DNA of 25,260 nt from a virus. Below are positions 3,123 through 25,260 of the stretch, one piece after another. The stretch's first letter is position 1; the number at the start of each line of letters is the position of its first letter. The translations under genes were made by a program, and so were the position numbers. The notes under the pieces are model-generated. The model was given only the letters and a program-made list of their open reading frames with translations, had not been told where the DNA came from and ran no database searches. The stretch spans positions 64,001-89,260 of IMG/VR virus record IMGVR_UViG_3300023171_000010. The stretch is one strand, 5' to 3'.

Positions 3123-3274
3123 AGTTCCACTCCGACAATTCTCAGTTTAAATTTATTCACTTCCCATTCATCGTAAGGCAAGAAATGATAGCCTGTTTCT
3201 TTGCTCCACACAAGCAATATTTTGTCAATGATCCTTTGGGATGTGTATTCTGTGAAGTTTTCTAGGTTGTGCAT
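3119..3274 (-). CDS. Small hypothetical protein, 51 aa
   Basis: The ATG at 3274 gives MHNLENFTEYTSQRIIDKIL and then LLVWSKETGYHFLPYDEWEV, ending VGVEL. It overlaps the end of the PcfJ-like gene by 13 bases and joins the next gene by ATGA. These overlaps, and the uninterrupted frame filling the gap exactly, support it despite its size. It is polar, with no membrane segment, and I do not recognise it. Confidence 0.6.
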   Translation of the reverse strand: MHNLENFTEYTSQRIIDKILLVWSKETGYHFLPYDEWEVNKFKLRIVGVEL

Positions 3275-4416
3275 TTATTAAGCTCCAAAAGAAGTATATT
3301 AGGAATAGCTTTCTCATCTTCATCTTGAATGTGTGCATTGCAGTATCCATAATGCTGATTGAAAGACCACTTAGGGTCTTCACCTGTGACAAACATCTGA
3401 TTAAAAGCAACAGTACTTGAACGTTTACCGTCCCTAGTAATCGAATAGACAAGATACCTACCTTGACGTACAGAATCAACATAACCACCAACACAATGGT
3501 GCATAGCTTGACCTTCTCCATGCACTAAAGATGCACTGTCTAGGAGAGTTGCTAGATAGCCTTTGTGCTCTACCTCTTTAACGCTAAAGTCTTTTAAACA
3601 GTTGAAAGGCTCCGGTGAGTATCGTTTTAGATTGACAAGCTTTACATACTCAGTGTGTTTTTCTTTCATCTTGTCGATTGACCAGTTATGATTAAAAGAC
3701 TTACCAAGTTCTTCAGACATTCTCTTAGTGTCTTCATATGTACGCGCCAGTAAAACTTGTTCTCTATTATTTCGTACAAAGTTCTTGCTGTTCAACTGCT
3801 TATTATCAAACAACCACTTTGTAGAAGCTGTCCACTGAAAATGGCAATTACCACCTTTCTTCAACATGTAGCTTGGCAATTCCAGTGCAGTTTGAATATT
3901 ATTTTCACCATATCGAAAACGTTTAGCACCAGAAGCTAGAAACTTGTTACGTGTCATGGATTGCTTACAAATCTTTTTCCACACACTTTTACCAAAGTCT
4001 TCTTTCAATCCTTGTGGATGATCTTCTTTTTCCAAGATCCATGGAACGATATTGTAGATACCATCCCTCTTAGCCTGTTCAACAATTTCCAGGTTGATCC
4101 AAATCTTCTTGATCATCCAAGGATTTAGCTTTTTACGGCTGTTGTAGGCAAAACGGTTTGCATGCTCTTTGATCGGGTCAACCCATACATTCATCATCAA
4201 AGCATTGAAAACTTTCTTGAATTTAGCTGGTGTGATTCCATATTTGTCACTGAATGCACGAGCCCAACGAACGTTTCCAGAGGACTCAAAGAATCCCATA
4301 ATAGAACGAACGTCAGTGGCTTTGTTAAGCATCTGAAATGAATTGAACTCTACACCAGCAAAGCTGATGGACTTGATTTTCCTGTTTACTACGAATTCAT
4401 TTGTAAAGGGTTTCAT
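3262..4416 (-). CDS. PcfJ-like protein, 384 aa
   Basis: The C-terminal third carries the pattern I associate with PcfJ-domain proteins (named after pCF10 of Enterococcus, function unknown). This is GEGQAMHHCVGGYVDSVRQG (residues 300-319, with His-Cys at 307-308), then YLVYSITRDGKRSSTVAF and, near the end, NQHYGYCNAHI (353-363). The N-terminal two thirds are helical and basic, without motifs I know. The family is found on plasmids and phages, and the His-Cys and Arg-rich signature looks like an active or metal site, but this is not established. The SD GGAGAATTTA precedes the ATG. The gene starts 13 bases after the palm-like gene stops, so the two probably share one transcript. The combination with a polymerase-like gene is unusual. 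Confidence 0.7.
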   Translation of the reverse strand: MKPFTNEFVVNRKIKSISFAGVEFNSFQMLNKATDVRSIMGFFESSGNVRWARAFSDKYGITPAKFKKVFNALMMNVWVDPIKEHANRFAYNSRKKLNPWMIKKIWINLEIVEQAKRDGIYNIVPWILEKEDHPQGLKEDFGKSVWKKICKQSMTRNKFLASGAKRFRYGENNIQTALELPSYMLKKGGNCHFQWTASTKWLFDNKQLNSKNFVRNNREQVLLARTYEDTKRMSEELGKSFNHNWSIDKMKEKHTEYVKLVNLKRYSPEPFNCLKDFSVKEVEHKGYLATLLDSASLVHGEGQAMHHCVGGYVDSVRQGRYLVYSITRDGKRSSTVAFNQMFVTGEDPKWSFNQHYGYCNAHIQDEDEKAIPNILLLELNKCTT

Positions 4417-4429
4417 TAAATTCTCCTAT

Positions 4430-5713
4430 TTATGCCAAGATTTTACTTTCTTGAAGCACATTAGCATCCTTCCAAGACATTTTCAAGGGGATTAATGAGG
4501 TAATCTCAAATTCTTCACGGAAAGAATCTCCCATTGCATTCTCTAGAAAGCCTACGTCTGACATTTTCACCACAAAACTATCATGAATAGGTAAGATTGG
4601 CTTCATTTCATCAACAAATTTCTCAATTACCCGCTGTGCAAGATACGAATCGGCATTCTGTAGGGCTAGACCAAAAGAATCATCCCGGCAATAACAAGGA
4701 ATGAAGTCAGGCGTCATACTATAAATGTGTTCCCTCACCTCTTTACCTGTATTCAAGCTTTTGTCAATAACCCAACCTTGTGTTTTGAACTTCACAATCT
4801 CTCTATTAATTGCACGATCAGCACTATCTGTTGTTTTAGAGTTAAACAGAATATTAATTGATAACTTAATCAGTTCACGGTGATCATCATTTTGCAATCG
4901 TTCTGGTAGAATATCCATATACACATCTAGTGGTAGATTCTCCATACTAATCTGTTCCATCAGGCTTGCAATCCTGTAGTGCAAGTTAGAGAAATCAATC
5001 TCCACAACCTGCTCTCCATTGATTGTAATATCAAGTCGAGCTTTAGTTTTCTTATGTTTAATCTTTAAAGCATCAGAATGGAAGTAACGACCACCATGTT
5101 CAAAATCCTTGTTGAAAATACGTGAATAGATATTAGTCATTACATTACCTCCGCCATCACGAATATCATGTAACTCATTAATCTTATTAAGTTTTTCTAC
5201 AATCTTACGCGCATTCTTAATGTTCTTGTTGTCTTGATAGTCAATAGCTTTACCATATTCATTGCGAAGAATGATCGTTTGAAGGCTAGCATTATAAGCT
5301 GCAATAGCGCTCTGCACCTCCTCATCCTTGGAGCAAAACTCAGCAATAAAAGCTTCAGATGGCGTGATGTAAGACATTATTCTCTTTTCCTTATCTACGT
5401 GACCTTTACCCACGAAGTTGTAAATGTAGCCTAAATCTTCAAGGGTGTCAATGCATTTCAGTAGACGATGGGTTTGTATGCCACGTCTGTTATATTTGGT
5501 TCTTTTTGTGCTATGATTATTCTTATCTCTTGAGTATAGAAGCTTCTCCTGTCTCTTCACACAAGATATGAGATTCATTACAATCACAGCAGATAACTCT
5601 TTATCCATTATCTTATTTATATGTCTGATCTTATTCATAACAGAAGTAGATACATTGATATTGTATGTCAATAATCTACTCTTAAGACTATACTCTTCCT
5701 CATTCTCTAACAC
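4430..5713 (-). CDS. Winged-helix protein with family A/single-subunit-polymerase-like palm, 427 aa
   Basis: Residues about 40-110 look like a winged helix-turn-helix (GIQTHRLLKCIDTLEDLGYI at 78-97). A conserved-looking YSRIFNKDFEHGGRYFHS (196-213) follows. Then come three features with the order and spacing of a polymerase palm: motif A-like VEIDFSNLH (Asp240), motif B-like HRELIKLSINILFNSK (Arg279, Lys283), and motif C-like LPIHDSFVV (His377-Asp378). FGLALQNADSYLAQRVI (347-363) occupies the place of the helix before motif C. HDS resembles T7 RNA polymerase more than the HDE of most family A DNA polymerases. There is no 3'-5' exonuclease domain, and the protein is far shorter than either family. 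The start is GTG at 5713 after GGGAG. The N-terminal part is very AT-rich. It could be a minimal RNA or DNA polymerase, a primase, a template-free nucleotidyltransferase or an inactive relative. The fold is an inference. Confidence 0.6.
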   Translation of the reverse strand: MLENEEEYSLKSRLLTYNINVSTSVMNKIRHINKIMDKELSAVIVMNLISCVKRQEKLLYSRDKNNHSTKRTKYNRRGIQTHRLLKCIDTLEDLGYIYNFVGKGHVDKEKRIMSYITPSEAFIAEFCSKDEEVQSAIAAYNASLQTIILRNEYGKAIDYQDNKNIKNARKIVEKLNKINELHDIRDGGGNVMTNIYSRIFNKDFEHGGRYFHSDALKIKHKKTKARLDITINGEQVVEIDFSNLHYRIASLMEQISMENLPLDVYMDILPERLQNDDHRELIKLSINILFNSKTTDSADRAINREIVKFKTQGWVIDKSLNTGKEVREHIYSMTPDFIPCYCRDDSFGLALQNADSYLAQRVIEKFVDEMKPILPIHDSFVVKMSDVGFLENAMGDSFREEFEITSLIPLKMSWKDANVLQESKILA

Positions 5714-5724
5714 TATTCCACTCC

Positions 5725-5808
5725 CTAGTCCCTCTTCTGTTCATATAAGTACAAATTTGATAGTAAGGTCAAGTAATACGTGGCATACAGAGGATTCCCG
5801 TAAGCCAT
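5725..5808 (-). CDS. Possible 27-aa micro-ORF
   Basis: ATG at 5808 gives MAYGNPLYATYYLTLLSNLY and ends YEQKRD just before the SD of the palm-like gene. AAGGAG is upstream but only one base from the ATG, which is closer than normal. A candidate promoter lies inside it. The aromatic, moderately hydrophobic content suggests membrane contact. This call is weak. Confidence 0.3.
   Translation of the reverse strand: MAYGNPLYATYYLTLLSNLYLYEQKRD
5743..5772 (-). promoter_or_regulatory. Candidate promoter for the palm-like and PcfJ-like genes
   Basis: On the minus strand, TTGACC (5767-5772) is followed after 18 bases by TTATAT (5743-5748). The GTG start of the palm-like gene lies 29 bases further on. 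It could give this two-gene unit its own transcription. Confidence 0.4.
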
Positions 5809-8877: not shown

Positions 8878-10620
8878 TTGAGTAACAAATATGGCATTGA
8901 CACCTCTCATGAGCATAAGACAGGTTGCCCAAGGTGTATCAGGAAGGGGCAAGACAAGTCTAGGAACAATCTTCATGTCTATGGTGAAGGTAAGGGGGCA
9001 TTCTGCTGGGCTTGTGAATTCACAATTCCTAGCGATGAATGGCTTGAAGAACATGGTGAAATTAAAGACGATGAAGAGGAGTTTGTAGTGGGAAGTTATT
9101 TTGATCTAGAAGTTAATGAGAAAATTAAGAAACAAACGGGCACAGATAGTAAGGGTTATCGAGGGATTCGTAGTGATATTTCCCGACCTTTTGGTGTGCG
9201 GTATAGTTATGATGAGGCTGATGGCAGTGTTGCTGCAACATACTACCCGACCACTCAGAATTATGAGATTTCAGGATACAAACTGAGGAAACACCCCAAA
9301 GACTTTACCAGTCCAGTAGGTGAGACTGGTAAGGATTGTGAACTTTTTGGTCAGTTTAAGTTCAAAACGATGACAGGCACTGTTGTTATTTGTGGCGGAG
9401 AGCATGACTCCCTCGCAGCTTTCCAGATGCTGTCTGACGCACAGAAGAATAAACAATATGATCCTGTAGCTTGCGTTAGTCCAACAATTGGTGAAAGTGG
9501 AGCCCATAAGCAAGTACAGAAACAATATGCCTTTTTCTCTCAAGCAAAGAAAATCGTAATTGCAACAGACAATGATAAAGCTGGTAAAGAAGCGGCCGAA
9601 AAGATTGCTAAAGTTTTGCCTCGTGGCCGTGTTTACATTATGAATATGCGCCTCAAAGATTGTAACCAATATATCGCTGAAGGTCGTGAACAAGATTTCA
9701 TTAATGATTTCTGGCAAGCAAAACCTTATAGTCCGGCTGGTGTTCACGCATCCAGTGGTTTGTTGACTGCTGCTATTGACTACTCTGACTTGAGTAAACT
9801 TACACTCCCACCTTTCATGGCTAAAGCTCAAACTATGTTTGGCGGCGGGTTGGTCAAGAATGAGCTAACTTGTTGTTTTGCCAAAACTTCTGTCGGTAAG
9901 AGCTTGTTTGTTGATTCCATGGTTGTGCATTGGGTTCTGACTGAACCAGCTGAGATTGTTGGCGTGTTGTCTCTTGAGGCGACCAAAGACAAATGGGCTA
10001 CAAACATTCTTTCCAATTATTTGGGCGTACGCCTGATTAACATGGATGGTGCAGCACGTCGTGAGTATCTATCTCGTGATGACATTCGTGACAAGGCTGA
10101 ACACTTCCTAATGAAAGAGGATGGTTCACCTCGTTTCTGGGTCTGTGATGAACGAGGAGCTTCCATTGAAGTTGTGAAAGAAAAGATTCTTGAGATGATT
10201 ATTCAACTCGGAGTTACTATCCTTGTTGCAGACGTTTATTCTGACTTGATGGCGGGTTTGAGTCTTGAAGCTCAAGAAGAATTGGTTGCATGGTTTAAGA
10301 AGCTGATTAAAGAGTATCCTCAAGTTAGTGTCTTGTTGGTATGTCATACCAGAAAAACAGATAACAATTCACAGCTAACTGAAAGTGATATTATTGGAAC
10401 TTCTACAATCATGAAGTCTGCTGCACAAACATTTAGTCTAGAACGCGATAAGCTCTCAGACAGTGATTTTGAGCGCAACTGCACCAAGGTTACTGTACAC
10501 AAGAATCGTCACCACTCAGAGACCGGCCCTGCTGGGATTGTGTATTTTGATAAGGACACTGGCAAACTATATGATCTAGACCAATATTTGATTGATCATC
10601 CAGAAATTACGGAGTTTTAA
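8878..10620 (+). CDS. T7 gp4-like DNA primase-helicase, 580 aa
   Basis: A bifunctional replisome protein that lays RNA primers and unwinds DNA ahead of the polymerase. In order: a zinc finger with CPRC (Cys17, Cys20) and CWAC (Cys43, Cys46); a Toprim fold with VICGGEHDS (Glu175) and IATDNDKAG (Asp231, Asp233); a RecA-like helicase with Walker A AKTSVGKS (335-342) and Walker B ILVADVYSD (Asp452), VCHTRK, the Gln motif SAAQTFSLER and HKNRHHSETGPAG near the C-terminus. Size and order fit T7 gp4 (566 aa). The Walker A lacks the usual first Gly. The start is TTG at 8878 with GGGAGAGATGA upstream. The order primase, polymerase, exonuclease is T7-like. Confidence 0.92.
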   Translation: MSNKYGIDTSHEHKTGCPRCIRKGQDKSRNNLHVYGEGKGAFCWACEFTIPSDEWLEEHGEIKDDEEEFVVGSYFDLEVNEKIKKQTGTDSKGYRGIRSDISRPFGVRYSYDEADGSVAATYYPTTQNYEISGYKLRKHPKDFTSPVGETGKDCELFGQFKFKTMTGTVVICGGEHDSLAAFQMLSDAQKNKQYDPVACVSPTIGESGAHKQVQKQYAFFSQAKKIVIATDNDKAGKEAAEKIAKVLPRGRVYIMNMRLKDCNQYIAEGREQDFINDFWQAKPYSPAGVHASSGLLTAAIDYSDLSKLTLPPFMAKAQTMFGGGLVKNELTCCFAKTSVGKSLFVDSMVVHWVLTEPAEIVGVLSLEATKDKWATNILSNYLGVRLINMDGAARREYLSRDDIRDKAEHFLMKEDGSPRFWVCDERGASIEVVKEKILEMIIQLGVTILVADVYSDLMAGLSLEAQEELVAWFKKLIKEYPQVSVLLVCHTRKTDNNSQLTESDIIGTSTIMKSAAQTFSLERDKLSDSDFERNCTKVTVHKNRHHSETGPAGIVYFDKDTGKLYDLDQYLIDHPEITEF

Positions 10621-10621
10621 T

Positions 10622-11494
10622 TTGAATTTTTCAGAAATTTTTAAATATGATGAAACAAGTCCAACATTTATTAGGTGGATAGAGCCATTTCGGATTGGCC
10701 GTGGTGGTAAACCTGTACGCCGAATAAATGATTGCCAAGCTGGTAATATTACAAGTGAAGGCCGTTTGGCAATTACGTACCAAGGCAAAGTCTACTCAAT
10801 CAACCAAGTTGTGTGGGAACTGTTCAATGGTAAGATTCCCAAGGGTAGGCAAGTTATGAATAAAGACGGGAATGCTTTGAATTGTAACATTGATAATCTG
10901 GAGTTGAATATAGTTTTAAATAAAAAAGATTATAAATATGGAGAGTATCTAGGCGAGTTCTTTATTTATGATGAAACATCTCCGAGTGGTTTGAGGTGGA
11001 AGAGGGTCAATACTCGGGGAAGTACAGCAAAAGTTGGAGATATCGTCGGGTCACTTGACAACGGATATTGGCGCGTACATGCCTTAGGTAGACATCTCAA
11101 GGGCCATAAAATTGTTTGGGCGTTAAATAACAACTTTGAAAATCAAGACGGCCTACATATTGATCACATTGATGGAAATCCCTCCAACAATAAGATCAAA
11201 AATCTGAGGTTGGTTGACCCTATTTTGAATGCCCGTAATAAACCAATGCTCAAAAGTAATACATCCGGGATTCATGGTGTATGTTTCCAGACTGTGAGGA
11301 CTAAAAATGGAAATTATGTTGACCGATATGTCGCCGGTTGGCGAGGTCTAGACGGAAAAGCGAAGACAAAATGTTTCTCTGTGAATGTCTATGGAGCAGA
11401 ATTAGCTGAATTTCTGGCAACTGAGTATAGACTTCACCAGATGGAGCTGTTAAACTTGATGGATGCTGGATACACTGAAAGGCACGGAACATAA
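10622..11494 (+). CDS. HNH-AP2 homing-type endonuclease with duplicated HNH module, 290 aa
   Basis: Probably a free-standing homing endonuclease. The protein has two copies of a module starting YDETSP (residues 9-14 and 116-121). Copy 2 (to about 200) has the active pattern: GHKIVW with His163, then LHIDHIDGNPSNNKIKNLRL with Asp181-His182. Copy 1 has the same layout, but NQVVW replaces the first His and QVMNKDGNALNCNIDNLEL lacks Asp-His, so it is probably a dead DNA-binding copy. An AP2 DNA-binding domain follows (NTSGIHGV at 213-220 to about 272). The start is TTG at 10622, one base after the primase-helicase stop, with CGGAG upstream. The gene sits between primase-helicase and DNA polymerase, a typical homing target. 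Confidence 0.82.
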   Translation: MNFSEIFKYDETSPTFIRWIEPFRIGRGGKPVRRINDCQAGNITSEGRLAITYQGKVYSINQVVWELFNGKIPKGRQVMNKDGNALNCNIDNLELNIVLNKKDYKYGEYLGEFFIYDETSPSGLRWKRVNTRGSTAKVGDIVGSLDNGYWRVHALGRHLKGHKIVWALNNNFENQDGLHIDHIDGNPSNNKIKNLRLVDPILNARNKPMLKSNTSGIHGVCFQTVRTKNGNYVDRYVAGWRGLDGKAKTKCFSVNVYGAELAEFLATEYRLHQMELLNLMDAGYTERHGT

Positions 11495-11508: not shown

Positions 11509-13617
11509 ATGTTAGGTGAGAATGAGATTGTGCTGGATATTGAGGCAGATGGATTTATTTTTGAGTCCACAAAGGTTTGGACAGTTTGTGCAACCAATAT
11601 TCAAAGTGGGGAAAAGATTAAGGTAAATCCTTTTAAAGATGAGTCTGCCAAAGATCAGCTAATCTCATTCATCTTTAAAAAGCCTAATCCTGTGGTCATA
11701 GGCCACTTCATCCTTGGCTATGATATGTTCGTGTTGCAGAATATTGTGGGTATCAATTTCTCTGTTGGCAAAGACATGATTGACGGGAAGTCAGTTCAAT
11801 TTGTGGATTCTCTATATTTGAGCATGTTCCTTAACCCTGATCGTGTTGGGCACAGTGTTGAGGCATTTGGTGAAACTCTTGGACTTCCAAAGATTGATTG
11901 GCGAGAAAAAGCCATTGAACTTGGACTGATTGAGAAGAATGCCCCTAAAGGTGCAGAGTTCATGCAATGGCACCCAGAGATGGATGTGTACTGTGAGCGA
12001 GATACTGACGTAAACGTTTTACTATACCAATATCTTGCAAAAGAATGGAAAGATGTTTATGGAAAAGACTTCACAATCACTGATGCCTATAAGTGTGGAC
12101 AGAAGTCTTTTTATCTCATGTCTTGTCAGGAACTTACCGGCTTTAAGTTTGATAAAGATGCAGCAGTGGCATTACAGGGTCGCATCACTTTGATGATGGA
12201 AGAAATCCGAGCAGAGGTTGAGCCTAAACTTCCTCCAAGGGCTTTGAAGAAGTCTGAGGAAAAGTATTACAGCATGCCAGCCAAGCCCTGGAAAAAGTCA
12301 GGAGACTATTCTTCAGCGTGGGAAAAGTTTGTTGAGAAACACAATGGCGTCCTGAACACAGAGACGGGTTTTTGGGAATTTTATGGTGAAGAGTATCCCG
12401 TAGTTGCAGGAGCTATGTTGAATATTAAGCTTCCAATGGAAATGGCTAACCAAGATCAGATGAAAGACTGGTTTATACAGCAGGGTTGGAAACCAACTTT
12501 GTGGAATTACCAGAAAGATTCAAATGGTAAGCCAATACGCGATGCCCGTGGCAAACTTATCCAGACAAGTCCTAAGATTCAGGAAACACAGAAGATTTGT
12601 CCCAACTTGGAAAAGATGGAAGGACCGATTGTAAAACAAGTTGTTAAGTGGCTTTCATTGCGAAATCGTCAATCTGTTTTGAACGGATGGCTTGAAAATG
12701 AACGTTTCCAGATGGATGGGCGTCTTGGGGCTGGTCGTACAGGGATTGCCTCAACACACAGGCAGAAGCACAAAGTGGTTGTGAATGTTCCTAAAGCATC
12801 TGATAAGGTCTTACTCGGTAAGGAGTTCCGCTCCCTTTGGATTGCAGATGATGGTATGCTGATCGCAGCTGGAGACGCCGCCGCGCTGGAAGGAAGAGTG
12901 ATGGCGAGTTACACATGGAAGTATGATGATGGTAAAACCGCCCTTGAAATCCTTGAAGGCGATCCGCACTCTAAAAATGCAATGGCTTTCTATGGACATG
13001 AAAAGGATATTCAACAATTTGATATTGATTCACCGAGTTTTAGTAAAGATCACCCTATATTTAAACCATATCGTGATCGCAGTAAGAACGGATTTTACGC
13101 AATTTTGTATGGCGCTGGAGGGCCAAAGGTTGCAAGTACGCTTGGGTTACCCGAGAAGATGGGGAATGAGAAGCTCAATAAATTCTGGGAAGCCAACCCT
13201 GCAATTAAAGGTTTACGTGATAACCTAGAAAAGTATTGGGAGACCACCGGCCGTAGTAAATACCTCCCAGCAATTGATGGTCGTATGCTTTGCACACGTA
13301 AAAAGTCAGCACTCCTCAACACAATTTTCCAGAGTTGTGGAGGTATCACAATGGACTATGCTGGGTGTTTTATGGACCTGTGGCTAGGTGGCTTAAAGTG
13401 GGAAAATCGTAAACCTTATTACATGTACAAGGGTTATATCGTAAGGCGTGTAGCATATCAGCACGATGAGTACGAATTTGAAGCTGAAGAGCCAATTGCA
13501 CAAGAAATTGCACGGATGATTGAGAAATCTATTGAAAAAGCTGGACAGCACCTTAAGCTCAAAGTACCATTGGCTGGTGAAGGACAGGTAGGTAAAAATT
13601 GGAAAGAAGTGCATTAA
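11509..13617 (+). CDS. Family A DNA polymerase, T7 gp5-like, 702 aa
   Basis: The replicative polymerase with proofreading. The 3'-5' exonuclease has DIEAD (Asp10, Glu12), GHFILGYDMF (Asp72) and YCERDTDV (Tyr161, Asp165). The polymerase palm and fingers have motif A GDAAALEGRV (Asp456, Glu461), motif B RDRSKNGFYAILYGAG (Arg522, Lys526, Tyr530) and motif C QHDEYEF (His652-Asp653-Glu654). Tyr530 aligns with Tyr526 of T7 polymerase. Length is the same as T7 gp5 (704 aa), and no inteins or introns are seen. Motif A has Ala-Ala where DxSxxE is usual. The SD is AGGAG. It acts with the primase-helicase just upstream and the SSB downstream. Confidence 0.94.
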   Translation: MLGENEIVLDIEADGFIFESTKVWTVCATNIQSGEKIKVNPFKDESAKDQLISFIFKKPNPVVIGHFILGYDMFVLQNIVGINFSVGKDMIDGKSVQFVDSLYLSMFLNPDRVGHSVEAFGETLGLPKIDWREKAIELGLIEKNAPKGAEFMQWHPEMDVYCERDTDVNVLLYQYLAKEWKDVYGKDFTITDAYKCGQKSFYLMSCQELTGFKFDKDAAVALQGRITLMMEEIRAEVEPKLPPRALKKSEEKYYSMPAKPWKKSGDYSSAWEKFVEKHNGVLNTETGFWEFYGEEYPVVAGAMLNIKLPMEMANQDQMKDWFIQQGWKPTLWNYQKDSNGKPIRDARGKLIQTSPKIQETQKICPNLEKMEGPIVKQVVKWLSLRNRQSVLNGWLENERFQMDGRLGAGRTGIASTHRQKHKVVVNVPKASDKVLLGKEFRSLWIADDGMLIAAGDAAALEGRVMASYTWKYDDGKTALEILEGDPHSKNAMAFYGHEKDIQQFDIDSPSFSKDHPIFKPYRDRSKNGFYAILYGAGGPKVASTLGLPEKMGNEKLNKFWEANPAIKGLRDNLEKYWETTGRSKYLPAIDGRMLCTRKKSALLNTIFQSCGGITMDYAGCFMDLWLGGLKWENRKPYYMYKGYIVRRVAYQHDEYEFEAEEPIAQEIARMIEKSIEKAGQHLKLKVPLAGEGQVGKNWKEVH

Positions 13618-14837: not shown

Positions 14838-15533
14838 ATGACTAACAAAACTGAAGTGATCGTCCGTGAGTTGCCTAAATCTGGTGGCCTTGAAACTGTA
14901 AATATCTACATCAAGAACGCCGTTGTATTTTATGCAGCAGTTCATGAAGCGAAGAAAAAGTATCAGAGTGAATCGAAAGAGTTCAGCGCTCAAGTGTTTG
15001 TGGATGAGGAAGCTAAGGACAAGCTACTTGATGAAGTTATGGTTAACAAAACCTTTGCTGAGGTTGGTGTAACGAAAACATCGAAACCGCCTAGGAAGAT
15101 CAAGTACATGACTTCTGAGCAAGCTGAAGAGGGTAAGGTTAACTACGATGTGGTTAAAGGTATGTGGGGTTTCAACGTTGCTAAACCAGAATTTAGCAAA
15201 AAGAATAACCCTATGACTGTTAACGTTATTAATACCGAAGGTGAAGCTTTTACTGATAACATCGGCAACGGCAGTGTGGTTAACTTGAAACTATTTGGCT
15301 ACCGAAATGTTGACAATCAAGTTGTGATTACTTTGGATACTGTACAAGTGGTTGAGCACATTCCGTTTGAAGGTCGTACTGCATCGGACAGTGTTGATGA
15401 CGATATTCTTGGTAGCTACAAAGTGAAGAAGGTTGAAGCCAAACCTGTTGAACAAGAGAAGGAAGCTCCAGAAGCTAAACCTACTCCACAACCTGAACCC
15501 GAGTTTGATGACTCTGATTCGCTGCCATTTTAG
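14838..15533 (+). CDS. Single-stranded DNA-binding protein, T7 gp2.5-like, 231 aa
   Basis: It coats single-stranded DNA at the fork and contacts other replication proteins through its acidic tail. The size and start (MTNKTEVIVRELPKSGGLET) and the position among replication genes fit gp2.5-type SSBs (T7: 232 aa). The middle holds basic and aromatic strands (KPPRKIKYM; VKGMWGFNVAKPEFSKKNNP). A low-complexity Glu/Pro linker (EKEAPEAKPTPQPEPE) leads to the tail EFDDSDSLPF, the acidic tip ending in Pro-Phe that is diagnostic of bacterial and phage SSBs. The SD is AGAGAGAAATAA. The OB-fold itself I infer rather than see. Confidence 0.82.
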   Translation: MTNKTEVIVRELPKSGGLETVNIYIKNAVVFYAAVHEAKKKYQSESKEFSAQVFVDEEAKDKLLDEVMVNKTFAEVGVTKTSKPPRKIKYMTSEQAEEGKVNYDVVKGMWGFNVAKPEFSKKNNPMTVNVINTEGEAFTDNIGNGSVVNLKLFGYRNVDNQVVITLDTVQVVEHIPFEGRTASDSVDDDILGSYKVKKVEAKPVEQEKEAPEAKPTPQPEPEFDDSDSLPF

Positions 15534-15544
15534 TAGTTGAAAAC

Positions 15545-15564
15545 GGAGGGCGTAAAAGCCCTCC
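15545..15564 (+). terminator. Perfect hairpin just after the SSB gene, possible terminator lacking its T-run
   Basis: GGAGGGC (15545-15551) pairs exactly with GCCCTCC (15558-15564), loop GTAAAA. The expected run of T after the stem is missing (CATTCAAAGG follows), and the HNH gene starts 17 bases later. It may be a weak terminator, an RNA stabiliser, or a terminator altered when the HNH gene arrived. Confidence 0.4.
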
Positions 15565-15581
15565 CATTCAAAGGGGTAATG

Positions 15582-16163
15582 ATGGGGAAGTATTATAAAC
15601 CTGTATTCGGGGTTGGTATTAATGACTTAGACAGAGACGTAACTTGGAAGGTTGATGGAAAGAGGGTTGCTTGTCCAATCTACCGAACTTGGCAAAACAT
15701 GTTAGGTCGTTCTTATGACACAGAATTTCACAAACGGCATCCATCGTATAGCGATTGTTCTGTTATAGATGGGTGGATTCATTTGAGCGATTTTGAAAAG
15801 TGGATGTTGACACAAGATTGGAAAGGTAAACAACTGGATAAAGATATTATACTGCCCGGTAATAAAGTTTATTCACCAGAAACTTGTGCCTTTGTTGATA
15901 AGAAGCTTAATTTGTTTATCATGGACACTGCTGCAACAAGGGGTGAGTGGCCTATAGGTGTCAGCTGGAATAAAAGGGACCAAACTTTTAAAGCAGAAAT
16001 CCGAAATCCTTTTACACACCGACGGGAAGGGCTTGGTTACTACGATAACCCAGAAGATGGTCACTTAGCTTGGAAGAAACGTAAACATGAGTTTGCATGT
16101 TTATATGCCGAACAACAAACTGATCAACGAGTAGCTGAAGCACTTCGCACACGCTATCTATAA
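15582..16163 (+). CDS. HNH-like homing-type endonuclease (LDKD/GNK type), 193 aa
   Basis: It is paralogous to the gene at 23553. Shared parts in order: GINDLDRDV, CPIYRTWQNMLGRSY, DGWIHLSDFEKWM, LDKDIILPGNKVYSPETCAFV (split by the same spacing), and a C-terminal AP2-like or DNA-binding part (WPIGVSWNKRDQTFKAEI). The LDKD...GNKxYSxxxC block matches phage and prophage HNH-like proteins with a Cys-based metal site. The ATG at 15582 is chosen because AAGGGG is five bases away; the ATG at 15579 is too close to it, and the TTG at 15537 lies at the hairpin. Activity is not shown. It sits right after the SSB gene, as expected for an intergenic homing gene. Confidence 0.72.
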   Translation: MGKYYKPVFGVGINDLDRDVTWKVDGKRVACPIYRTWQNMLGRSYDTEFHKRHPSYSDCSVIDGWIHLSDFEKWMLTQDWKGKQLDKDIILPGNKVYSPETCAFVDKKLNLFIMDTAATRGEWPIGVSWNKRDQTFKAEIRNPFTHRREGLGYYDNPEDGHLAWKKRKHEFACLYAEQQTDQRVAEALRTRYL

Positions 16164-16464: not shown

Positions 16465-16491
16465 AGGGGAGCTTTTTGCTCCCTTTTGTTT
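16465..16491 (+). terminator. Rho-independent terminator
   Basis: GGGAGC (16467-16472), loop TTTTT, GCTCCC (16478-16483), then TTTTGTTT. It ends the unit that starts at the promoter 13633-13661. The SD of the exonuclease gene lies just after it, so expression downstream needs read-through or another promoter. Confidence 0.8.
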
Positions 16492-16506
16492 AAGTGGGAG
16501 AACGGA

Positions 16507-17508
16507 GTGACAAAACTAACATCAATAATTGACCTAGATTACGTAAAGTATGCTTCTGCATCAGTTGGTGAAAAACGTTCTATCATCGTCACTCACAAAT
16601 CATCAGGCCGTGAGAAAGAATTCAATACACGAACTGAGTTCTACGGACGAGATAAAGCAAAGTCTGGTGGTTGGCTTGGTGAACTAAACTCTAAACGCGA
16701 TAGTCCTTTTTCTGTTGATGAGTTTGAGATTGTAGACCAGCAGATTGCAGAACCAATTGACCACGTATTGCAGATTGCAAAGACTCAAGTTGAAGGCGAT
16801 CTAAAGCGACTTGGTACAAAAAAATACAAAGCATTCTTGGGTAAAGGTGATAGCTTTCGTGTTGAACTGTCTACGCTTAAAAAGTACAAAGATAACAGAA
16901 AGGATATGTTACGCCCTCTTCATATGGATGCTGTGACAGAGTACCTTGAACGGAAGTTTAAAGCTGAGGTTGTGACAGACATTGAAGCAGATGACCGATG
17001 TGTGATTGAAGCTTACAATAATCCTAATGCTGTAATTCAGGGCCTTGACAAAGATTACTACGGACAGCCTGTCAAGTTCTTTAACGTCAACCGTCCAGAT
17101 GAAGGTACTCAAGATTGTAACCAGTTTGGAAGTTTGTGGTTAGACGATAAGGGTGATGTTCGGGGTATTGGCAGGATGCATCTGTATTGGCAGATGGCAA
17201 GCAACGACACCTCTGACAACTATGCAGCTAATTGCTTCTCAGACATTAAGTGGGCGGGGAAATCAGCCTACAAAAGCCTTGTAGAAGCTAAGACAGACAC
17301 TGAGGCATGGGAGAAGCTTAAAGGGATTTTCCAGTACCTTTATCCCGAAGAAAAGACTGTTTTAGGCTGGAGAAATGACCCTATCAACCTCACTTGGGAT
17401 TATGTTTTGAATGAGATGTTTGTGATGGCTCGGATGCTTAGGTTTGAAGGTGAGAACTTGAATGCTTATGATGTGATGGATAAATTGGGAGTTAGTTATG
17501 CAAATTGA
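16507..17508 (+). CDS. 5'-3' exonuclease of the FEN/T7 gp6 type, 333 aa
   Basis: Probably the exonuclease that removes RNA primers and degrades host DNA or processes ends. Acidic metal-site residues appear in the order of this family: IIDLDYVKY near the N-terminus (Asp9, Asp11), DIEADDRCV (Glu160, Asp162, Asp163), LDKDYYG (Asp181), and MASNDTSDNYAAN (Asp234, Asp237), matching the GxxxDN/DxxDN step. The GTG at 16507, with GGGAG upstream, is preferred to a TTG at 16486 that lies in the terminator T-run. Length is close to T7 gp6 (300 aa). It follows SSB and polymerase as in T7-like gene orders. Its end overlaps the next gene by 11 bases. Confidence 0.8.
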   Translation: MTKLTSIIDLDYVKYASASVGEKRSIIVTHKSSGREKEFNTRTEFYGRDKAKSGGWLGELNSKRDSPFSVDEFEIVDQQIAEPIDHVLQIAKTQVEGDLKRLGTKKYKAFLGKGDSFRVELSTLKKYKDNRKDMLRPLHMDAVTEYLERKFKAEVVTDIEADDRCVIEAYNNPNAVIQGLDKDYYGQPVKFFNVNRPDEGTQDCNQFGSLWLDDKGDVRGIGRMHLYWQMASNDTSDNYAANCFSDIKWAGKSAYKSLVEAKTDTEAWEKLKGIFQYLYPEEKTVLGWRNDPINLTWDYVLNEMFVMARMLRFEGENLNAYDVMDKLGVSYAN

Positions 17509-17782
17509 AAAACTTGTAGAGATTCTTAACGAAATTAATTATCCCGTTCTTTTTGAAGTTGACCTAGAATCTATCTGGCAAATTGATGACGATAATATTT
17601 CTTGGAATAAAGATGGTAATAGGTTTGATCTAGAAAATGGAGAAGGTGAAACTTACTCTGGTTATCTTCCTGAAGGTTATACTGTTCAAGATAAATATGT
17701 AATCTGTAACGTTGATACACAATGTGGTCAATGGGTTACACATATCTTTTCAGCACTGAAAGAAGTGACGGCCCTTGAATGA
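17498..17782 (+). CDS. Hypothetical phage protein, 94 aa
   Basis: MQIEKLVEILNEINYPVLFE leads into an acidic beta-rich domain (LENGEGETYSGYLPEGYTVQ) and ends with a helical tail. It overlaps the exonuclease gene by 11 bases and the HNH nuclease gene by four (ATGA). No family is recognised. Confidence 0.65.
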   Translation: MQIEKLVEILNEINYPVLFEVDLESIWQIDDDNISWNKDGNRFDLENGEGETYSGYLPEGYTVQDKYVICNVDTQCGQWVTHIFSALKEVTALE

Positions 17783-18378
17783 CACTCCCAACCCAAGCAG
17801 ACATTGATAAACGTAAAGCTAATCTTGAAAAATTCTTAAAAGAAATTGATCCGGTGACAGGGAAGTCACATGAGAAAAGTATGGTCAGTGTGGTACGTTC
17901 ATCTATCCGTAAGGCGTGGATGCGATCACCTACGAAGCTCGCTTATTTGTACATGAAAACAGAGCCTGATATGGACCCTAACACTCGCACAAAGTGGAGA
18001 GTCATGTGCGAGTGTTGTGGGGAGTATTTCAAGATTAACGAAGTTGAGTGTGACCACATTGAAGGGAACAATACGTTTACTAAAGTCTCAGACTTTCAAG
18101 CTTACTTTGACAGCATCTTGATGGTTGGATTTGATGGGTTGCAAATCTTGTGTTCTGAGAACTGTCACCCCACAAAGACCCTGGCAGAAAAGCTTGACAT
18201 ATCTTTTGAATCTGCTAAAATTGAACGTGAAGTAATTAAAATCTGTAAACTGAAAGCATCACAAATTGATTGTTGGCTAAAAGAGCGGAATGTTGTAGTC
18301 GCTAAGAATCCTAAAAGTAGACGTGATGCTGTTCGTAATGTTTTAGAACAGGAGAAATACAATGAGCAAGCTAAGTAA
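17779..18378 (+). CDS. HNH (beta-beta-alpha metal) endonuclease, 199 aa
   Basis: Probably the recombination or DNA-debranching nuclease of the module, taking the place that gp3 endonuclease I has in T7. The nuclease core is zinc-finger-like: MCECCGEYFK (Cys77, Cys80), VECDHIEGNN (Asp92-His93), and LCSENCHPTK (Cys125, Cys129, His130). Before it lies a basic helix (VVRSSIRKAWMRSPTKLAYL) and after it a helical tail with another basic patch (NPKSRRDAVRN). Unlike the other HNH genes here it has no AP2 part and is joined by overlaps to both neighbours, so I read it as a resident replication gene rather than a homing gene. A T4 endonuclease VII-like role is possible. Confidence 0.7.
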   Translation: MTLPTQADIDKRKANLEKFLKEIDPVTGKSHEKSMVSVVRSSIRKAWMRSPTKLAYLYMKTEPDMDPNTRTKWRVMCECCGEYFKINEVECDHIEGNNTFTKVSDFQAYFDSILMVGFDGLQILCSENCHPTKTLAEKLDISFESAKIEREVIKICKLKASQIDCWLKERNVVVAKNPKSRRDAVRNVLEQEKYNEQAK

Positions 18379-19071: not shown

Positions 19072-19083
19072 GGGGTGATTGGT

Positions 19084-20013
19084 TTGAGTAATTGGAAAGA
19101 AGAAGCTTTGAAACTAAAAGAGCAAGGTTTGTCTAGTCGAACTATTGGACGAATTCTTGGTAAAGGTAAATCTACAATTAATGATTATTTGTCTACAGTA
19201 AAAAAGATGTTTGCTAATGATGAAGTGTCAAATGAAAATGTAAAATCGGGACCACGAGTCTTATTTATTGACATTGAAACTTCCAGTCTCAGCTTGGCAG
19301 GTTGGAGGTTGTTTGATCAAAACTTCTCCTTGAATCAGATTGAGCGTGACTGGTTTTTGTTAAGTTTTTGTGCAAAGTGGGGGGACTCGGACGAATTGTT
19401 TTACATGGACAAGCGTAATGCTGTAGACATGTATGATGATAAAGAAATTCTTAAAACAATCTGGACTTTGATGAACGAGGCTCACTATATTGTTGGTCAG
19501 AACAGTAAGCGATTTGATACCAAGAAAATTAACGCGAAATTCATTGAACATGGGTTTCCACCACCCTCACCATACCGTCAGATTGATACATTAGAGCAAT
19601 CCAAGCGTTCGTTTGCTTTCACCAGTCACAAACTTGAGTATATGACAGACCTTCTTTGTACTAAATACAAGAAGAGTACACATGGTAAGTTTGCTGGCTA
19701 TGAATTGTGGCGTCAATGTTTGTTAGGTAATATTGAAGCTTTTGAGGAAATTGAGGAATACAATAAGCTTGATGTTTTGTCCCTCCAAGAGTTGTACGAG
19801 AAATTGTGTGTTTGGGACACTAAACTTCCTAATTTCTCTGTTCATAACGATGAAGTGGAAGAACAAGATATTTGGGTCGAAGATGGTTTTGTATTCTCCA
19901 ACAGCGCCAAATATCAATGTTATCGTAATGTTCAAACAGGTCAGTTCCGTCGAGGTAAAACAAATCTATTGAGCAAAGAAAAACGCCAAAGCTTGTTAGC
20001 TAATATTGTATAG
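19084..20013 (+). CDS. DEDDy 3'-5' exonuclease fused to a helix-turn-helix, 309 aa
   Basis: Residues 1-38 carry a helix-turn-helix of the resolvase type (LKEQGLSSRTIGRILGKGKS, TINDYL). Then a RNase H-like exonuclease follows: FIDIETSS (Asp63, Glu65), VGQNSKRFDTKKIN (Asp145) and YNKLDVLSLQELY (Tyr226, Asp230), which are the DEDDy residues. The C-terminus (KYQCYRNVQTGQFRRGK) looks like a zinc-ribbon position from which most Cys have been lost. It could be a DNA-targeted proofreading, repair or host-degrading nuclease. TTG at 19084 is taken as start because GAGGGGTGAT is well placed; GTG at 19075 is too near the SD. The DNA polymerase has its own proofreading domain, so this is additional. Confidence 0.75.
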   Translation: MSNWKEEALKLKEQGLSSRTIGRILGKGKSTINDYLSTVKKMFANDEVSNENVKSGPRVLFIDIETSSLSLAGWRLFDQNFSLNQIERDWFLLSFCAKWGDSDELFYMDKRNAVDMYDDKEILKTIWTLMNEAHYIVGQNSKRFDTKKINAKFIEHGFPPPSPYRQIDTLEQSKRSFAFTSHKLEYMTDLLCTKYKKSTHGKFAGYELWRQCLLGNIEAFEEIEEYNKLDVLSLQELYEKLCVWDTKLPNFSVHNDEVEEQDIWVEDGFVFSNSAKYQCYRNVQTGQFRRGKTNLLSKEKRQSLLANIV

Positions 20014-23201: not shown

Positions 23202-23563
23202 GCGTAGGATTTAATTTGAGTTTGTCAGACTTGCTTCTCTGTGAAGGCTTTGCCCAAGCATTTGGTGAAGACAATAAAGAAGAGATTAGTAAATTTCTTT
23301 TTAATAATGGATTGGATGTGAGCATGGGAGTTGATGAGGTAGTTTGTAAGCATCGTAATCTTCGTGGCAATGTTGTAGACTGTCTGATGTACCAAGGCCA
23401 CGAACGCAGTGGTGAATGGTTAACTCAAGGTGCAGCGAGTTGGGAAGCTATTGTAGCAAGTTGTGACCTTAACCTACGTATTGACTTGTTGAACATGGGA
23501 GCACAAAGTAATAACACTGGGATGATTCTACAGCAGATGGAGAAACACAAGGGTGGAGCTTAG
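23198..23563 (+). CDS. Hypothetical phage protein, 121 aa
   Basis: MSVGFNLSLSDLLLCEGFAQ, then EEISKFLFNNGLDVSMGVDE, VVCKHRNLRGNVVDCLMYQG and a helical end. It is soluble with a few Cys. It is linked upstream by ATGA and overlaps the HNH gene by 11 bases. Its position before NrdJ suggests it belongs to the nucleotide module, but no motif supports a specific role. Confidence 0.65.
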   Translation: MSVGFNLSLSDLLLCEGFAQAFGEDNKEEISKFLFNNGLDVSMGVDEVVCKHRNLRGNVVDCLMYQGHERSGEWLTQGAASWEAIVASCDLNLRIDLLNMGAQSNNTGMILQQMEKHKGGA

Positions 23564-24218
23564 GAAAAGGAATAGGCTAGTATGGGGATGGGGTATTAAT
23601 GATGCTGATTACAATGTAGTTCTCACAGATGAGAATGGTAAACAGGTAATGTGCCCCATATATGCAAGCTGGAAAGATGTTTTACGGAGGACAAAATCAG
23701 AAGAGTTTAAACTGAAATTTCCCACCTATAAAGAAGCCACAGTAACAGACAATTGGAAGTATTTTTCAAATTTTAAGTTATGGATGTCTTCATTGATGTG
23801 GGAAGGGATGGACCTAGATAAAGACATATTATCGCCGGGGAACAAGCATTATTCCGAAGATAGTTGTGTCTTTGTACCACACGAGATAAATACTTTACTT
23901 AGGCTAGTTACAACAAACACAACTACACCTGTGGGTGTTGCCTACGACAAAAGAAGGTATAAAGGTAAGAATTTGATTAACCCTTTCTTTGCTAGAGTTA
24001 ACTGTTTCGGCGGAGGATATAAACATCTGGGTATGACATCTGATCCATTTGTAGCTCACAAGGCTTGGCAATGGGAGAAGTCCATACAAATTGAAAAAGC
24101 TGTGAGTTGGTATGCATTACAGGCTTGTTTTAGAAGTGATGTAGCTGAAGCTTTAACATCTAGAGTTTGGAAGCTTAGGCTGGATCACTCTACAAACAAA
24201 GAAACTAAATATTTATAA
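23553..24218 (+). CDS. HNH-like homing-type endonuclease (LDKD/GNK type), 221 aa
   Basis: It is paralogous to the gene at 15582: GINDADYNV, CPIYASWKDVLRRTKSEEFK, DNWKYFSNFKLWM, LDKDILSPGNKHYSEDSCVF and a C-terminal DNA-binding part (PVGVAYDKRRYKGKNL) occur in the same order. Start GTG at 23553 (GGAG ten bases upstream) overlaps the previous gene. There is no in-frame ATG near. It stands immediately before NrdJ, a frequent target of phage homing genes. Catalysis is inferred from the family. Confidence 0.7.
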   Translation: MELRKRNRLVWGWGINDADYNVVLTDENGKQVMCPIYASWKDVLRRTKSEEFKLKFPTYKEATVTDNWKYFSNFKLWMSSLMWEGMDLDKDILSPGNKHYSEDSCVFVPHEINTLLRLVTTNTTTPVGVAYDKRRYKGKNLINPFFARVNCFGGGYKHLGMTSDPFVAHKAWQWEKSIQIEKAVSWYALQACFRSDVAEALTSRVWKLRLDHSTNKETKYL

Positions 24219-24230
24219 ATAAGGAGTTGT

Positions 24231-25260
24231 ATGAATACCGCTGGCAAAAATATGATGAGTCAATCAAAGTTTTACATGGGTTACTCTCGTTGGGATGAAG
24301 TTAAGGGTGGATATGAAACTTGGGATGAATCAGTTTCTCGTGTAATGAATATGCACCGTCAAAAGTATGCTTCTGTTATGACACCAGAGCTTGAAGAATA
24401 CATCTCTTTTGCAGAGCAAGCCTATAAAGATAAAGTTGTGTTAGGGGCACAACGAGCATTACAGTTTGGTGGTGAACAACTATTTAAACATGAAGCTCGT
24501 ATGTACAATTGCTCTGTATCTCATTGTGATCGCGCAGCATTCTTTCAAGAGTGTATGTATCTCCTGTTGTGTGGTTGTGGTGTTGGCTTCTCAGTCCAAT
24601 CTCACCACATTGCTAAGTTGCCAAAAGTACATAAGCGTTATGAGAAGAAAGTAAAAGTGTTCCAAGTTCCAGATACAATTGAAGGGTGGGCAGATGCTTT
24701 TGGTGTATTGTTCAGTAGTTACTTTGTAGACGGTGGAACATTCCCTGATTATAAAGGCTGTCAAGTACACTTTGACTTCAACAAGATTCGACCTAAAGGA
24801 GCTTTGATTAGTGGCGGGTTTAAAGCTCCAGGCCCTGATGGTTTGCGTAGTGCGTTGGTCAAGTGCGAGGCGTTGCTAGAAGCATTAGTTGAGGGTAAAA
24901 CAGAGGGTGTTAGCGTTCCTACCATCACAGCTTATGACTTTGTTATGCATATGTCTGATGCAGTTTTGAGTGGTGGTGTTCGCCGGTCTGCAACCATCTG
25001 TATGTTTGATAAAGATGATGATTTGATGTTGAAGGCCAAAACTGGTGATTGGTTTGTTGATAACCCTCAACGTGGTCGTAGTAATAACTCTGTAATGCTT
25101 GTTCGTGGTGAACTTAGCCGCGAAGAATGGGCTAACATTATGAAGTCTGTTAAAGACTTTGGTGAACCCGGTTTTATCTTTACAGAGAATAAAGAGTTCT
25201 GTTTCAACCCTTGCGTAGAAATTGGTATGTTGCCAGTTGCTGAGAATGGAGAATCAGGCT
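24231..25260 (+). CDS. nrdJ: Adenosylcobalamin-dependent (class II) ribonucleotide reductase NrdJ, partial at the right edge
   Basis: It reduces ribonucleoside triphosphates to dNTPs with B12 as radical source. The window holds the first 343 residues of an expected roughly 700-residue protein, so the gene runs off the edge. Seen: NCSVSHCDRAAFFQECMYLL (Cys94, start of the catalytic core), CGCGVGFSVQSHHIAKL, SGGVRRSATICMFD, and NPCVEIGMLP with Cys328, the likely thiyl-radical cysteine of the NPCxEI motif. TAAGGAGTTGT is the SD for the ATG at 24231. A class II enzyme needs no oxygen or separate small subunit, matching ThyX as another self-sufficient step. No intron is visible in the part seen. 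Confidence 0.9.
   Translation, partial: MNTAGKNMMSQSKFYMGYSRWDEVKGGYETWDESVSRVMNMHRQKYASVMTPELEEYISFAEQAYKDKVVLGAQRALQFGGEQLFKHEARMYNCSVSHCDRAAFFQECMYLLLCGCGVGFSVQSHHIAKLPKVHKRYEKKVKVFQVPDTIEGWADAFGVLFSSYFVDGGTFPDYKGCQVHFDFNKIRPKGALISGGFKAPGPDGLRSALVKCEALLEALVEGKTEGVSVPTITAYDFVMHMSDAVLSGGVRRSATICMFDKDDDLMLKAKTGDWFVDNPQRGRSNNSVMLVRGELSREEWANIMKSVKDFGEPGFIFTENKEFCFNPCVEIGMLPVAENGESG

Follow-up and report, generated by a model that had tools for sequence, protein, structure and literature searches.

A 427-residue open reading frame in the window, the stretch of 25,260 bases analysed here, which is the final part of an 89,260-base virus record (G000), raises the question of what a phage with a T7-like replicative polymerase does with a second polymerase-like protein of about half the usual size. 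The frame, noticed at 4430-5713 in an earlier note made from the letters alone, is real and lies on the minus strand, from 5713 to 4430 (Table 1); the plus strand across 4430-5713 contains many stops. No near match to G000 was found among 50,697 phage records. The same record carries a second copy of the gene (G000:40203-41444, minus strand), 45% identical to the first.

At the nucleotide level, similarity to the orthologues extends over the gene and some 70 bases upstream of it, ending at position 5784 in four of six cases. An upstream ATG (ATGAACAGAAGAGG, window 5714-5760) is in frame in several orthologues, in which it would add about 13 residues, and is out of frame in the window and in L004. 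Because of this difference in frame, the true start of the gene is unsure.

Table 1. Features of the window and of the polymerase-like protein, in window coordinates
Feature	Position	Strand	Remarks
PcfJ-like protein	3262-4416	minus	PF14284, 9.4e-13; 13 bases downstream of the polymerase gene
divPolA2 gene (PHROG 4756)	4430..5713	minus	427 aa; GTG start; stop 4430-4432
Motif C, H377-D378-S379	4577..4585	minus	positions of Pol I H881-D882-E883
Motif B/fingers helix, R279-xxx-K283 and N291	4841..4879	minus	positions of Pol I R754, K758 and Y766
H245	4979..4981	minus	position of the Pol I ribose gate E710; His 68/74, Glu 3/74
D240, motif A metal ligand	4994..4996	minus	74/74; position of Pol I D705
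R209, GGRYF hairpin	5087..5089	minus	Arg 72/74, Lys 2/74; position of Pol I R668 and T7 RNAP R425
Helical linker where a thumb would be	5172..5326	minus	helices 130-143 and 163-180 (model); conserved N176
N-terminal winged-helix-like domain, residues 38-118	5360..5602	minus	AlphaFold domain model, pLDDT 85
Upstream segment, kept with the gene in orthologues	5714..5784	minus	TTGAC-like box, ATATGAACAGAAGAGG, then GTG start
Primase-helicase (Toprim)	8878-10620
T7-like DNA polymerase	11509-13617
gp2.5-like SSB	14838-15533
Exonuclease	16486-17508

A member of the divPolA2 family

The window protein matches PHROG 4756, a family of unknown function, at 1.5e-56. A tblastn search finds relatives in 168 phage records, 115 of which are Rheinheimera phages, the others including phages of Vibrio, Aeromonas, Pseudoalteromonas, Klebsiella, Pseudomonas, Pseudaeromonas and Shewanella. 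The family has been named divPolA2 by Yutin et al. (2024; PMC11348598), who report it from 110 barbaviruses and other phages, some of which carry two or three paralogues. In their description the palm is intact and a homologous thumb is missing, the N-terminal globular domain has no reported similarity, and the neighbourhood varies. A repair DNA polymerase or an RNA polymerase is offered there as its role, with no measured function. The window protein resembles this family in profile and sequence, has motifs A, B and C in its palm, lacks an exonuclease and a homologous thumb, and comes with a standard replicative DNA polymerase in the same genome and with neighbouring genes that vary. It is therefore a divPolA2 member from an uncultivated phage group, of a kind already described: the remark in the earlier note that no characterised protein of this build was known holds, whereas the family itself was on record. 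Compared with the published description, the N-terminal domain is here modelled as winged-helix-like and the family is tied to bacterial proteins; what this analysis adds is this tie to bacteria, the identity of the gate residues and the pairs of paralogues that differ at the gate.

The family is widespread in phages of Vibrio, Aeromonas, Rheinheimera and others. Among them is the well-studied cholera phage ICP1, whose ORF100 (L209:3114-4778) is a member of 555 residues, extended at the N terminus (phrog_4756, 2.5e-163). A genome has one to three copies, patchily distributed and located in hypervariable regions. In the tree the phage copies form two deep groups; five genomes (G003, G004, G005, G009 and G013) hold one copy from each, and the two copies of G000, like those of G008, both come from the first. 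A viral scan with L012 as the sole query returned nothing.

Palm motifs and predicted fold

VEIDFSNLH, HRELIKLSINILFNSK and LPIHDSFVV had been read as motifs A, B and C of a palm of the family A or single-subunit RNA polymerase type. They occur in the claimed order, with D240 and D378 at the positions given for them, in a palm of that type, and the protein indeed has no exonuclease domain. The motifs are not a product of chance, given the PHROG match, the relatives in 168 phage records and active-site residues kept in 74 of 74 aligned relatives.

An AlphaFold model computed with 50 related sequences (pLDDT 90.5, pTM 0.85) places D240 at the close of a long strand (234-241), D378 in a hairpin turn (374-376, 379-383) and R279, K283 and N291 on a single helix (276-291). 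In this model, palm and fingers are arranged as in family A. A Foldseek search of the PDB returns 30 chains below 1e-3, with family A polymerases at the top (8jrb, 5.8e-6; apicoplast DNAP, 7.9e-6; Pol theta, 4e-5), followed by yeast and human mtRNAP (2.4e-3 to 2e-2) and T7 RNAP (1.1e-2); in a viral library the match is a 'DNA polymerase' of barbavirus 31A (2.7e-19). Of the checks proposed in the earlier note, structure prediction thus gives a confident palm model with significant fold matches to family A polymerases, and the searches of PDB and Pfam, as well as of NCBIfam, give no significant match for the 427-residue protein by sequence or profile. Profile-profile comparison with single sequences of Pol I, T7 DNAP, T7 RNAP and N4 gp16 aligns the right motifs, below significance. 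The assignment of fold and family can be regarded as nearly certain.

The winged helix said to precede the palm stands in part. The order of elements in the model (H38-53, E56-60, H81-93, E97-100, E114-118) fits such a domain, but its fold matches stay below significance, the best Foldseek hit having an E value of 0.095 and most hits being PadR, LmrR or MarR winged helices over about 46 columns. In the helical linker that follows, N176 is kept in 47 of 50 sequences.

Conservation of the active site

R226, D240, R279, K283 and D378 are invariant in all 74 relatives, and N291 is kept in 73. In motif C, Asp is found in 74, His in 71 and Ser, at the position of E883, in 70. The hallmarks of family A, namely the E710 gate, Y766 and HDE, are absent in most members, which have His, Asn and HDS instead; the position of Pol I F762 is occupied by Asn, Leu or Met in nearly all 74, and that of Y766 by Asn in 73. 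Orthologues are 87-93% identical, with dN of 0.04-0.09 against dS of 1.15-1.5 (n=5), giving a dN/dS of about 0.03-0.06. Because of the universally kept catalytic residues and this low ratio, the protein is very likely a catalytically competent polymerase of the DNA polymerase I/T7 RNA polymerase superfamily, an activity that we infer from sequence.

Bacterial relatives and the TV-Pol connection

Plasmid matches in Thioclava and Paracoccus gave entry to a bacterial set of 79 loci, with relatives that are stand-alone genes, mostly from Rhodobacterales and SAR116, with a few from gammaproteobacteria, betaproteobacteria and others. The bacterial proteins align over their full length, N-terminal part included. 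Profile searches (hmmsearch) between the phage set and 24 bacterial proteins give 1e-29 to 1e-66, and reciprocal tblastn between phage and bacterial sequences reaches down to 1e-13 to 8e-26; phrog_4756 matches all 50 members of alignment A7. A single, fully supported branch of the tree separates the 50 phage from the 24 bacterial sequences. Tyrosine integrases account for three of the nine scanned neighbour proteins of the bacterial relatives.

The taxa of these relatives are those listed for TV-Pols, predicted prim-pols for which stand-alone forms are also listed (Iyer, Abhiman and Aravind 2008; PMC2579912). Like TV-Pol, the proteins have a two-helix thumb unit, a hairpin Arg, a palm with two Asp, RxxxK fingers and no nuclease, and some of the bacterial relatives are located near integrases. 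Unlike TV-Pol, the phage genes have no D5-like helicase or resolvase beside them: neither these nor an integrase or transposase adjoins the window gene, and none is constant in the phage loci. The missing link only lowers the case for TV-Pol membership, since stand-alone forms are listed (PMC2579912). D263, the candidate for the TV-Pol fingers Asp, aligns in part of the set only.

A published TV-Pol is carried by Ma-LMM01 (PMC2579912), and profile A7 gave no direct match to it. A wider profile ranks gp030 first among the 123 ORFs of Ma-LMM01, as a candidate for the published TV-Pol, with a marginal E value of 0.0065. This gene lies beside two transposase genes and encodes GLRVY...FREV...NYDVVKCH, having in common with divPolA2 the pattern GxRVY...R...D...H at marginal sequence similarity. 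A link of divPolA2 and its bacterial relatives to the TV-Pol family is likely, though not settled.

Genomic context

The divPolA2 gene lies to the left of the replication module and is divergent from it. The T7-type polymerase that the earlier note credited to this phage is present, as the DNA polymerase of that module. The N-terminal part of this T7-like polymerase also matches the phrog_403 exonuclease profile, and a separate 'DNA polymerase exonuclease subunit' gene stands at 19075-20013 (phrog_403, 5.9e-94). Four HNH endonuclease genes (10592-11494, 15537-16163, 17779-18378 and 23553-24218) are spread across the replication region, and window positions 24201-25260 are 94.8% identical to G000:1-1060: a long, imperfect direct terminal repeat.

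No neighbour of divPolA2 is constant, even between copies that are 93% identical, and a constant partner gene was rejected, as none, the PcfJ-like neighbour included, recurs next to relatives. Homing-like mobility of a lone gene was also set aside, given that orthologues (L003, L006) occupy roughly the same location, to the left of the replication module. In G011, the closest relative, this copy is missing only as part of a replaced, non-homologous stretch, and there is hence no clean empty site. With neighbours that are unshared and a copy replaced in G011, the gene is therefore accessory; it is under strong selection, in a part of the genome where genes are exchanged rapidly.

A possible accessory primase-polymerase

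Homology, the fold model, residue conservation, purifying selection and the accessory distribution of the family are established; the start of strands, the sugar choice and the role we infer. The reading that we favour, tentatively and a little short of an even call, is that of an accessory primase-polymerase, tolerant of NTPs and poor in thumb. By homology, D240 and D378 would hold two metals, R279 and K283 on the fingers helix would bind the incoming nucleotide and the R209 hairpin would contact the template, the N-terminal winged helix probably holding DNA. Y766 of Pol I has a part in ribonucleotide exclusion. E710 and F762 of Pol I exclude ribonucleotides, as stated for CCPol (PMC7581432). 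Acceptance of NTPs is expected because these three residues are His, Asn and Asn here, and short products are expected because there is no proofreading domain and a two-helix stump stands for the thumb. Such an enzyme would start strands and briefly extend them, as RNA, DNA or a mixture of both, acting beside, and not instead of, the DNA polymerase and primase-helicase of the phage. Against this reading speaks the doubtful need for another primer-maker in a phage that has a Toprim primase-helicase, a T7-like DNA polymerase and a gp2.5-like SSB.

The closest functional parallel is found in the CCPol-MP and PolA-SSB primases, mobile-element genes with an A-family polymerase domain, as here, and proven de novo primer synthesis (PMC7581432, PMC10061031). 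CCPol, which needs its partner MP to prime (PMC7581432), is close to Pol I and retains E710 and F762; it works with dNTPs and has an OB-fold partner encoded beside it. None of these traits is seen in divPolA2, beside which no OB-fold partner is constant, the downstream gene here being PcfJ-like. There are few strand-starting polymerases that belong to neither of the two classical primase families, and in the A-family branch a single one is proven. If divPolA2 primes or makes RNA, it would illustrate how the Pol I/T7 RNAP fold, reduced to a handful of elements, can turn from the synthesis of DNA to that of RNA or back, and it would provide a compact laboratory enzyme.

DNA or RNA polymerase

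The spacing of the motifs bears on the two roles proposed by Yutin et al. (PMC11348598). The distance from the hairpin Arg to motif A is 31 residues (E. coli Pol I, 37; T7 RNAP, 112), that from motif A to the motif B Lys 43 (53 and 94), and that from this Lys to the motif C Asp 95 (124 and 181). The protein is therefore without the insertions of T7-like RNA polymerases. The earlier note had taken HDS to point to the RNA polymerase side, a view that is not supported in that form, as the spacing is family-A-like or shorter and the top fold matches are DNA polymerases. The GRxY hairpin, the HDS motif and the lack of the Glu are RNA-polymerase-like traits all the same.

An accessory DNA polymerase that fills gaps, takes part in recombination or bypasses damage, extending existing primers with dNTPs, would explain the Pol I-like spacing, the architecture from hairpin Arg to motif A, which is that of E. 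coli Pol I and T7 gp5, and the fold matches to Pol theta and apicoplast DNAP, as well as a subgroup with Glu at the E710 position and HDE. Such a role is nonetheless unlikely: the Pol I ribose gate is missing in most members, in which E710, F762, Y766 and E883 are all replaced, the exonuclease and a full thumb are lacking, and there are no conserved repair neighbours.

We consider even less probable a small single-subunit RNA polymerase that transcribes certain genes of phage or host and recognises promoters through its winged helix. With T7-like enzymes, mitochondrial RNAP and N4 RNAP II included, divPolA2 shares the palm fold, the GRxY hairpin, R-xxx-K, HDS and the absence of a Glu gate; mtRNAP and T7 RNAP are among its fold matches, and a few members weakly match RNA_pol (0.0013) and the phrog_414/2051 RNA polymerase profiles. 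It differs from them in having about half their length, no promoter-element insertions between motifs and Asn in place of Y639. In addition, the largest family of repeated 18-mers in G000 has 3 copies, against 15 in the T7 control with the same script, a count that short or degenerate promoters escape. The sigma70-like sites number 66 where chance would give 50 (sd 7.7), a slight excess that speaks neither for nor against host promoters. A transcription enzyme of the T7 style, served by promoters of its own, was set aside, as no repeated 18-mer family in G000 exceeds three copies. A Pfam RNA_pol search of the 89-kb record gave no match, and the control was likewise unmatched, so that this search is no evidence of absence.

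A template-independent or specialised nucleotidyltransferase, directed against host defences or competing phages, would suit the patchy, accessory occurrence in one to three copies within hypervariable regions, and also the two deep paralogous lineages in the same genomes. It is improbable, in that PADLOC gives no match and the presumed template contacts, R209 and R226, are kept as strictly as the metal ligands. That the motifs are coincidental and belong to another fold and function, as the lack of significant Pfam, NCBIfam and PDB sequence matches might suggest, is for practical purposes refuted by the confident palm model, the significant fold matches, the universal active-site conservation and independent published modelling (PMC11348598).

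Paired paralogues with different gates

Three sequences, L203, L205 and L207, have Glu at the gate, together with HDD, HDE or FDE in motif C, and also lack E238 and the D355-S356 pair. Each of them shares its genome with a paralogue that has HDS and no Glu. Judging from these three sequences, a linked set of residues looks to have changed naturally. An extension of the accessory primase-polymerase reading, speculative and rather doubtful, is that divPolA2 forms a separate class of phage primase-polymerases with a naturally switched sugar choice, His/HDS members using ribonucleotides and Glu/HDE, HDD or FDE members deoxyribonucleotides, so that some phages (those of L203, L205 and L207) would have both. 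The pairing makes the question of sugar choice directly testable. A few members depart from the common gate in other ways, with Trp in place of H245 in a barbavirus copy and Phe in place of N291 in L022.
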